Under the pieces are notes generated by a model that had not been told where the DNA came from, did no database searches, and saw only the letters and a list, made by a program, of their open reading frames with translations. 17,547 nucleotides of DNA, taken from NCBI GenBank assembly GCA_024278345.1, contig JAJRTK010000160.1, forward strand, positions 1 to 17,547, read 5' to 3'. Below are positions 1-17,547 of the stretch, piece by piece. The number at the start of each line of letters is the position of its first letter. The first letter of the stretch is position 1. This DNA comes from a bacterium (lineage in GTDB: Bacteria > CSSED10-310 > JAJRTK01). The position numbers were made by a program, and so were the translations under genes.

Positions 1-84
1 CTGGCGTGGGTCTGGGAGCGGCGCTCCCAGCGGAGGTCCGGAGGCGGAGCCTCCGCCGGGTTCCAGGGCTGGAAGCCCCGGGGC
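1..84. repeat. Hairpin-array repeat, left copy (cut by window start)
   Basis: A run of short perfect hairpins. CTGGGAGC-GGC-GCTCCCAG is at 12-30, GGAGGC-GGA-GCCTCC at 40-54, GGGCT-GGA-AGCCC at 66-78, and the palindrome GCCCCGGGGC at 75-84. Bases 1-64 recur as a direct copy at 17484-17547 with one difference (G46 versus A17529). That difference falls in the 3-base loop of the second hairpin, so the stem is preserved. The left part of the array lies outside the window. No gene is supported here, although one minus-strand frame is open across it. Confidence 0.9.
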
Positions 85-103
85 GGCGTCTGAAATCTGA
101 ACC

Positions 104-127
104 GTGGCCGGTACCATGACCGAGGCC
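104..127 (+). repeat. 24-bp inverted repeat, right-end copy of hairpin element
   Basis: These 24 bases, including GGTACCATGACCGAGGCC, occur again in exact reverse complement at 17410-17433. The match stops abruptly on both sides. Here the repeat lies downstream of the hairpin array; at the other end of the window its inverted copy lies upstream of the array. I infer that it is the terminal inverted repeat of the element carrying the array. It contains a KpnI-type GGTACC and an outer dyad, CGTGGCC...GGCCACG, at 103-130. Confidence 0.75.
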
Positions 128-16246: not shown

Positions 16247-17455
16247 TCAAAGGTTTTTCCGCAGATAGAGCTTTTGTGGCCGCGTCCGATAGCCGCTCTT
16301 AGGCCAGAATCCCTTGGGGAAGTCTGAAAGGAGATCCGTGGATTGAAGGAAGTAATTCTTTTCCAGAACCCCTTGAAATCGTCGTTGGAACCATTCGGTA
16401 CCGGTGTCTAGGATGATGGCATCATAATCTTGCCGTCGGATCGAGCTCCGGAGCTTCATCAGGAGTTTTCGGCCCTCTGGCCGTTGGGGGCCTCCGAAAT
16501 CACCCAAAAGCTCTCCCAATGCCATGGGATGAGCGATGCAGCCTTTCCCGGCTGACCGGCACAGGTAACCGTGAGCTGGAACCAAGACCGGTCCGGGAGA
16601 TCCACGGAGGGTCTCTTCCATGACCTTTCCGGCGCCGAGATCAGCCGCGGTGGGAAAGAGAGAGAAGGGTTCGTAGGCAAGGGCGAGGAACTGGAGCAGA
16701 GCGACCAGAAAAAGGTAGGTCCGTACGGTAGGGGCTTTTCCAGGAGAGGACTGGACCATGAAGAGAGCCTTGTGGAAAGCCAACCCAAAAGCGATGGACA
16801 GGAAGGCGTAAGCTGGGAAGAGGGCATTTTTGTAGGATGCGGCGTTTGCCCTTCCTCCCCAGGAAAGCCCCAGGAGCCCCGCAGCCAGAAGAAGGAACCT
16901 CAAAAAGGGCAGCCTTTTGCCTTCCCAACTGAGGCACAGCCCATAGAACAGGGCCATGGCGCAAGCGATGGAGAGGGGAGCGATGACGTCATGGCTCCAA
17001 AAACCCAGCAAATAGGAAACGTCCAACTCGTGCTGCCGGGGCAGGGAAAAGACATAGTACAAGAACCACCCTTCGTGGAAGAGATCCAGGGCAAGAATCG
17101 CGCTGCCTACGGAAGAAGCAAGGACTCCGCCAAAGGTCAAGGCCGAATTCCGGCCATGGAGCCAGGCAATCAAGAAAAAGAAAGGTGCCAAAAAGAGGGC
17201 GGTTTGCTTGGTCAGAAAGGCCAGACAAAGCCAGAGAGCGGAGGCCGCGAAATCCCTTCTTCCTTTGCCGCCAAGGAGCCTTCTACAAGAGCACAAGACG
17301 AGCGCCAGAAAAAGGGAGTCAATCCGCGCTAGATCGAACCAAGCGCCACCGAGCCAGTAGGTTGCGGCAAGCAAGCATCCCGCGAGCAACCCAGAGAGAT
17401 GGTTTTGTGGGCCTCGGTCATGGTACCGGCCACCCGAAAAAAGCGCGCAGCGCAC
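16247..17455 (-). CDS. GT39-like membrane glycosyltransferase, 5' end displaced by repeat element
   Basis: A polytopic membrane protein with the pattern LGGAWFDLARIDSLFLAL (about 35-52), then AFLTKQTALFLAPFFFLIAW, then further membrane segments and a soluble C-terminal part ending RTRPQKLYLRKNL. This resembles GT39/PMT-type glycosyltransferases, but the usual N-terminal 80-120 residues (first membrane helix, acidic pair, YPP loop) are missing. Residues 8-16 (GGRYHDRGP) are encoded by the 24-bp repeat at 17410-17433, so family-like sequence starts only at about residue 17. The frame stays open through the hairpin repeat to the window end, so GTG 17455 is an arbitrary start. Either the gene was truncated by the element or it carries an in-frame insertion. 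It is likely non-functional if truncated. Confidence 0.6.
   Translation of the reverse strand: MRCALFSGGRYHDRGPQNHLSGLLAGCLLAATYWLGGAWFDLARIDSLFLALVLCSCRRLLGGKGRRDFAASALWLCLAFLTKQTALFLAPFFFLIAWLHGRNSALTFGGVLASSVGSAILALDLFHEGWFLYYVFSLPRQHELDVSYLLGFWSHDVIAPLSIACAMALFYGLCLSWEGKRLPFLRFLLLAAGLLGLSWGGRANAASYKNALFPAYAFLSIAFGLAFHKALFMVQSSPGKAPTVRTYLFLVALLQFLALAYEPFSLFPTAADLGAGKVMEETLRGSPGPVLVPAHGYLCRSAGKGCIAHPMALGELLGDFGGPQRPEGRKLLMKLRSSIRRQDYDAIILDTGTEWFQRRFQGVLEKNYFLQSTDLLSDFPKGFWPKSGYRTRPQKLYLRKNL
17410..17433 (-). repeat. 24-bp inverted repeat, left-end copy of hairpin element
   Basis: Exact reverse complement of 104-127. It lies 34 bases before the hairpin array that starts at 17468 and inside the reading frame of the minus-strand glycosyltransferase. 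Its outer edge (17409/17410) is where the family-like protein sequence gives way to repeat-encoded residues, which supports an insertion boundary there. Confidence 0.75.
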
Positions 17456-17467
17456 AAAGATGTGGGT

Positions 17468-17547
17468 CCAGGGAGCTGGCTCCCTGGCGTGGGTCTGGGA
17501 GCGGCGCTCCCAGCGGAGGTCCGGAGGCAGAGCCTCCGCCGGGTTCC
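17468..17547. repeat. Hairpin-array repeat, right copy (cut by window end)
   Basis: Hairpins in order are CCAGGGAGC-TG-GCTCCCTGG (17468-17487), CTGGGAGC-GGC-GCTCCCAG (17495-17513) and GGAGGC-AGA-GCCTCC (17523-17537). Bases 17484-17547 match 1-64 in the same orientation with one loop substitution. This copy shows the left part of the array that is missing at the window start, while the 5' copy shows the right part. Confidence 0.9.

Follow-up and report, generated by a model that had tools for sequence, protein, structure and literature searches.

The window, by which we mean the whole 17,547-nt stretch of DNA that was analysed, is a complete contig (C81 of 550) of a draft genome of 6.06 Mb that is 87.9% complete, here called the host. 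It carries dnaN, gyrB and gyrA, and at each of its two ends lies a partial copy of the same short repeated element. The left copy is located about 500 bp upstream of dnaN, while the neighbour of the right copy is an open reading frame on the minus strand (16247-17455) that stays open into the element. The features of the two copies are the following, with the hairpins also given in positions of the element consensus.

17410-17547, plus strand: right partial copy (A end), element positions 1-138, truncated by the contig end
17410-17433, plus strand: 24-bp terminal inverted repeat (TIR) of the A end, from arm comparison, 24-mer count and end alignment
17402-17409, no strand: 8-bp target flank of the right copy, GTTTTGTG, half of a putative duplication
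17444-17456, minus strand: weak terminator-like stem followed by TTTTTT, also found at the same place in a second copy (locus L056)
17468-17487, plus strand: hairpin 1 of the right copy, CCAGGGAGCTGGCTCCCTGG (consensus 59-78)
17495-17513, plus strand: hairpin 2 of the right copy, CTGGGAGCGGCGCTCCCAG (consensus 86-104)
17522-17538, plus strand: hairpin 3 of the right copy, CGGAGGCAGAGCCTCCG, with loop variant A at 17529 (consensus 113-129)
1-127, plus strand: left partial copy (B end), a separate insertion, element positions 75-201, truncated by the contig end
12-30, plus strand: hairpin 2 of the left copy (consensus 86-104)
39-55, plus strand: hairpin 3 of the left copy, with loop variant G at 46 (consensus 113-129)
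63-81, plus strand: hairpin 4 of the left copy, with a stem-breaking C at element position 153 (consensus 137-155)
104-127, minus strand: 24-bp TIR of the B end, from arm comparison, 24-mer count and end alignment
128-135, no strand: 8-bp target flank of the left copy, ACGACCGA, from the sequence

Between the left copy and dnaN, at 441-583, we noted four DnaA-box-like 9-mers with one mismatch each. Judging from these boxes the region is possibly a replication origin; no dnaA gene was found within the window.

A preliminary description of this DNA had joined the two partial copies into one element of about 201 bp (74 + 64 + 63) that is bounded by a 24-mer and holds no transposase. We find that the window arms at 104-127 and 17410-17433 are indeed 24 nt long and 100% complementary, and that the 64 bases shared by the two arrays (1-64 and 17484-17547) match at 63 positions. 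Ten further A-end copies in the host genome match the right copy at 100% identity, and 12 further B-end copies match the left copy equally. The predicted length is confirmed by the full copies assembled in the host DNA examined, as 13 of the 15 are exactly 201 bp, with one of 199 bp and one of 174 bp (one insertion, present with identical flanks on C282 and on C413, was apparently counted twice among the 15). The unit runs from a 24-bp TIR through a spacer holding an A-run to four hairpins, which a further spacer separates from the second 24-bp TIR. When the ends of the copies are aligned, the sequence is conserved within the element and the bases beyond the 24-mer are random, which identifies the 24-mer as the true terminus, and full copies do end there. 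In the host DNA sampled for this count, the 24-mer occurs mostly together with the hairpin array (112 of 129 distinct TIR-like sites at up to 6 mismatches). Neither of the two outcomes that the preliminary description had named as refuting it was thus seen.

The 24-mer is present 233 times in the host genome at up to 3 mismatches (a reversed control pattern gives 0), and because of this count we put the host copy number at about 115. At least 40 right-half matches (134-138 bp, 99-100% identity) and at least 40 left-half matches (122-127 bp, 98-100% identity) were scored in the host genome. Most of the listed copies are located at contig ends, and the repeat is therefore probably a main cause of the fragmentation of the host assembly into 550 contigs. 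An Rfam scan of the window gave no match, a BLAST search of the 201-mer against plasmids gave a single weak match of 47 nt, and the exact 24-mer was absent from the viral contigs searched; two relaxed matches in viral contigs have the same flanks, resemble phage coding sequence and were attributed to chance.

A perfect 8-bp repeat lies directly outside the TIRs in six distinct assembled copies. The target-site duplication (TSD) is missing in half of the assembled host copies, most of which are near contig ends. When the 8-bp flanks of 60 A ends were compared with those of 53 B ends, 16 pairs matched, including the six assembled copies, against about 0.05 expected by chance; shifting the comparison by 1, 2 and 3 bases gave 4, 2 and 0 matches, and 0 from there onward. 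Full copies bounded by the 24-mer with 8-bp direct repeats outside thus bear out the mobile element of about 201 bp that had been proposed. In the window the left flank differs from the right one, so the two copies are separate insertions. A search for their partner flanks found none, and 17402-17409 and 128-135 would each represent one half of a different duplication.

At 15 reconstructed empty sites the median longest spanning ORF is 184 codons, compared with 447 at random sites (p=1e-5), and 5 of the 15 lie within spanning ORFs of at least 335 codons. The element mostly lands or survives outside long genes, yet it also enters them. On contig C499 (locus L118), a single TIR-like site without the array precedes an ECF-sigma-like gene by about 140 bp; a reading of L118 1357-1524 as coding cargo was rejected, as this gene is an ordinary chromosomal neighbour.

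With a length below about 500 bp, perfect 24-bp TIRs, a fixed 8-bp TSD and many copies, the element is, as far as its sequence can tell, a MITE, and it represents a new family. The preliminary description had seen no transposase, and at 201 bp the element is too short to hold one, so it is presumably mobilised in trans.

The consensus contains four hairpins (59-78, 86-104, 113-129 and 137-155), so that the tandem array described earlier stands, with four hairpins where four to five had been given. The sole difference between the two window copies (G at 46, A at 17529) does fall in a loop, at element position 120, but it is a common polymorphism (51 A to 47 G across copies) and not a peculiarity of this pair. 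The suggestion that the stems are under selection or are copied by a structure-dependent mechanism did not hold up in 113 half or full copies, where stem breakage is common and compensation essentially absent. In the young host subfamily, 49 changed stem pairs are broken and a single one is altered on both sides while still pairing. The commonest stem change, at position 153, turns an A-T pair into A-C in 35 of 69 copies. Variation in this subfamily amounts to 1.2% in stems and 2.5% at unpaired positions. Selection on the stems is not supported. An older host subfamily, with TIRs containing CATCGTTTCGG and 8-bp TSDs, has retained the same four hairpins, with hairpin 4 altered on both sides of one pair.

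A second host MITE family has the other TIR type found on DUF6399 elements (described below), GGGTATCCACGCAAGGCGGGACA. It is represented at L105 4011-4179 and 16807-17086, L178 2035-2245, L104 10968-11303 and L122 4526-4744, and 8-bp TSDs flank five of nine assembled pairs. Pieces of the hairpin array are homologous between the two host families in spite of their different TIRs (E down to about 5e-11), and the array thus appears to behave as cargo common to both. Such sharing could be explained by recombination or nested insertion as well as by function. Across lineages, MITE interiors are mostly self-complementary (z mostly -2 to -12 against shuffled sequences, with exceptions of about 0 and -1.6), and their palindromes are unrelated in sequence. 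The hairpins look like cargo, not like a requirement for transposition. Several further repeats were seen in the host. The palindrome GGTGGCACCGGCATCTTGCCGGTG recurs near or beside MITEs on contigs L002, L059, L096 and L110, and another repeat, on three contigs, shares the TIR variant GGCCTTGGTCATAGTACCGGCCAT and has a different interior, ACCCTGTGAGAGAGGGTGGCG... (L110 1501-1740, L111 1501-1620 and L109). Domains of group II introns (Rfam RF00029) directly adjoin MITE ends or are located within MITE sequence at L108 19-153 (C32) and L111 1405-1524 (C206), and the hairpins may serve as landing sites for such introns.

Outside the host, a relaxed TIR pattern scan of genome contigs matched Lamprocystis, Thiodictyon and other Chromatiaceae, Desulfobacteraceae and Desulfoluna, as well as Verrucomicrobia and Chloroflexi records. 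Six of ten genomes checked contain 43-166 TIRs, and the other four about 0-5. Most TIR pairs in the loci fetched enclose short elements, several of them with 8-bp TSDs. The TIR family thus appears to extend over several phyla, where the IS family with these ends would have seeded similar mini-elements.

Longer elements (1.7-2.5 kb), whose TIRs are identical in type or related and which have 8-bp duplications, are found in Lamprocystis, Thiodictyon, a cyanobacterial plasmid and a viral contig, and these encode DUF6399 (PF19936). In a Desulfobacteraceae locus (L163) a TIR pair 1,824 bp apart encloses a single ORF, which matches PF19936, DUF6399, a 'family of unknown function'. Three loci (L196, which is the closed plasmid pTs417 of Ca. 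Thiodictyon syntrophicum, L199 and L213) have a DUF6399 gene or remnant between TIRs starting GGCCTTGATCAT with perfect 8-bp TSDs. A second branch of DUF6399 is represented by a Crinalium plasmid (L198) and an IMG/VR contig (L244), with TIRs reading GGCTACC...GCGGGACA and 8-bp TSDs. The viral contig (IMGVR_UViG_3300002092_000058) holds a complete element at L244 2760-4453 with perfect TIRs and an 8-bp duplication, which makes viruses a possible route of spread; a search for DUF6399 in phage records gave none. No TSD was found around the TIRs of the DUF6399 elements at L163, L200, L204, L208 and L212.

The host itself holds DUF6399 remnants, with matches on four contigs (C188, C387, C507 and, scoring under the curated cut-off, C80). 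At the start of C282 a DUF6399-like C-terminal end continues without interruption into the TIR variant GGCCTTCGTCATAGTACCGGCCAC, C80 is arranged likewise, and the near-identical TIR GGCCTTGGTCATAGTACCGGCCAC is present on some MITE copies. A complete autonomous copy was not assembled in the host draft genome, from which a multi-copy element below 2 kb may easily be lost. DUF6399 and the TIR also co-occur more widely. Among 386 genomes searched for both, DUF6399 is present in three, all three of which have the TIR, and only 4 of the 383 DUF6399-negative genomes have a TIR match, each a single one with 2 mismatches (Fisher p=3.7e-6, or 2e-4 without the host). The ten genomes reached through the TIR, which were selected for having it, contain DUF6399 in 5/6 cases with many TIRs and in 0/4 with few; the exception is Desulfoluna, with 43 TIRs and no DUF6399 match.

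The DUF6399 alignment has a conserved D, a second D 54 residues on, a D-x-x-H and a late E in SSxxEGRNG. Among DDE transposases, those of the IS256/Mutator and hAT groups have a C/D(2)H motif and produce duplications of 8 or 9 bp. The layout of DUF6399 resembles these in the order D, D, D-x-x-H, E, in a helical-looking long insert before the E and in the 8-bp duplications, but it gives no sequence match to their models. None of the NCBIfam transposase models fits DUF6399, which gives no more than weak helix-turn-helix matches that score well under the cut-offs. The N-terminal helix-turn-helix is seen as weak, mostly sub-threshold Pfam matches, and a single-sequence structure model (pLDDT 40) was too poor for a fold search.

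Several other readings of these data have to be weighed. The two partial copies could be one and the same sequence if the window were a circular replicon of about 17.4 kb with a 64-bp overlap at its ends, and the 98% match over these 64 nt would fit this. The overlap has a mismatch, however, the two flanks differ whereas intact copies have matching flanks, the same repeat is present at many other contig ends, and the three genes named above are chromosomal. With the last three points we consider a circular 17-kb replicon ruled out for practical purposes. Still less probable, to the point of being hardly credible, is that the array consists of REP/REPIN-type palindromes and owes its spread to a RAYT-like enzyme. 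The element does resemble REPs in having short palindromes in tandem, in its many copies and in often lying outside long ORFs, but REPs are not expected to have TIRs with target-site duplications, and both are present here. Alternatively, the same MITE could be moved by another family that makes 8-bp duplications (IS256, ISL3, IS6 or IS1595), with the DUF6399 genes as hitch-hikers. Several families do make 8-bp duplications, but we regard this reading as very unlikely, since five elements with perfect TSDs (L196, L199, L213, L198 and L244) have DUF6399 as the conserved gene within their TIRs, no other transposase-like gene was seen in the 1.7-1.9 kb elements, the TIR type switches together with the DUF6399 protein branch, and both the co-occurrence and the lack of a fitting NCBIfam IS model speak against it.

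A further alternative concerns only the interior, namely that the hairpin array is a selected functional cargo (a terminator, an insulator or a protein-binding array) that spreads by means of the MITE ends. The homologous array pieces in two host families with different TIRs, the four hairpins kept by the older subfamily with its two-sided change in hairpin 4, the weak terminator-like site near the A end and the bias of insertions away from long ORFs would all agree with this. On the other hand, about half of the young-subfamily copies have a stem-breaking change with essentially no compensation, the terminator scan found two stems where 0.7 were expected and is thus close to background, recombination or nested insertion would equally share cargo, and a bias away from genes is expected for any element under purifying selection. 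We therefore judge a selected cargo unlikely, though less so than the three readings above.

We favor with high confidence the explanation that the 201-bp element is a MITE mobilised in trans by a transposase of the DUF6399 family. Full-length ISs with the same kind of ends would encode the DDE-type DUF6399 transposase, which would recognise the terminal repeats, mobilise the 201-bp element and insert it at staggered cuts 8 bp apart in the target DNA, giving rise to the 8-bp duplications. What can be read from the sequences are the termini, duplications and copy number of the element, its TIR type in common with DUF6399 elements that have 8-bp duplications of their own, and the co-occurrence; catalysis by DUF6399, its action in trans and recent activity in this host are what we infer.

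Type I bacterial MITEs include Chunjie of Geobacter uraniireducens (235 bp), the Correia element of Neisseria and QMITE2 of Coxiella, the latter with TIRs of 23-29 bp and direct repeats of 7-9 bp (PMC10969869). The 201-bp element is like these in being short and non-coding, in its TIRs, direct repeats, many copies and strong secondary structure, and in its presumed mobilisation in trans by an IS. It differs from them by the four discrete hairpins inside, by ends of the DUF6399 family, by being GC-rich and not AT-rich, and by a TIR type that recurs in several phyla.

We find the assignment of DUF6399 as a likely transposase to be a more interesting outcome than a new MITE family. Full-length DUF6399 genes are enclosed by this type of TIR, flanked in turn by 8-bp duplications, whereas Pfam gives the function as unknown, NCBIfam has no matching model, and annotated plasmid records label the product 'DUF6399 domain-containing protein' and not transposase. 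Because pipelines use this label, the elements are missed. The open-access papers searched contain no mention of DUF6399, and hence none as a transposase, while ISfinder or subscription papers may describe one; literature searches with the TIR motifs returned only unrelated primers and similar sequences. DUF6399 is thus likely to be the transposase of an apparently unnamed IS family found across several phyla, so that a Pfam domain of unknown function gains a testable role, and the MITE families of Chromatiaceae, Desulfobacteraceae, Desulfoluna and the little-sampled phylum of the host would be tied together. That two MITE families share a hairpin cargo although their ends differ furthermore raises the question of whether a MITE interior can be under selection. 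In a broader version, which we consider possible but doubtful, a large, unnamed IS superfamily comprising at least two TIR types would have DUF6399 as its transposase, and its MITEs would carry exchangeable palindrome arrays under two lineages, with hairpins that are possibly functional. If this were true, the same hairpin cargo would have been spread by two transposase lineages within one genome, and the hairpins, if functional, might act in transcriptional insulation or as landing sites for group II introns.
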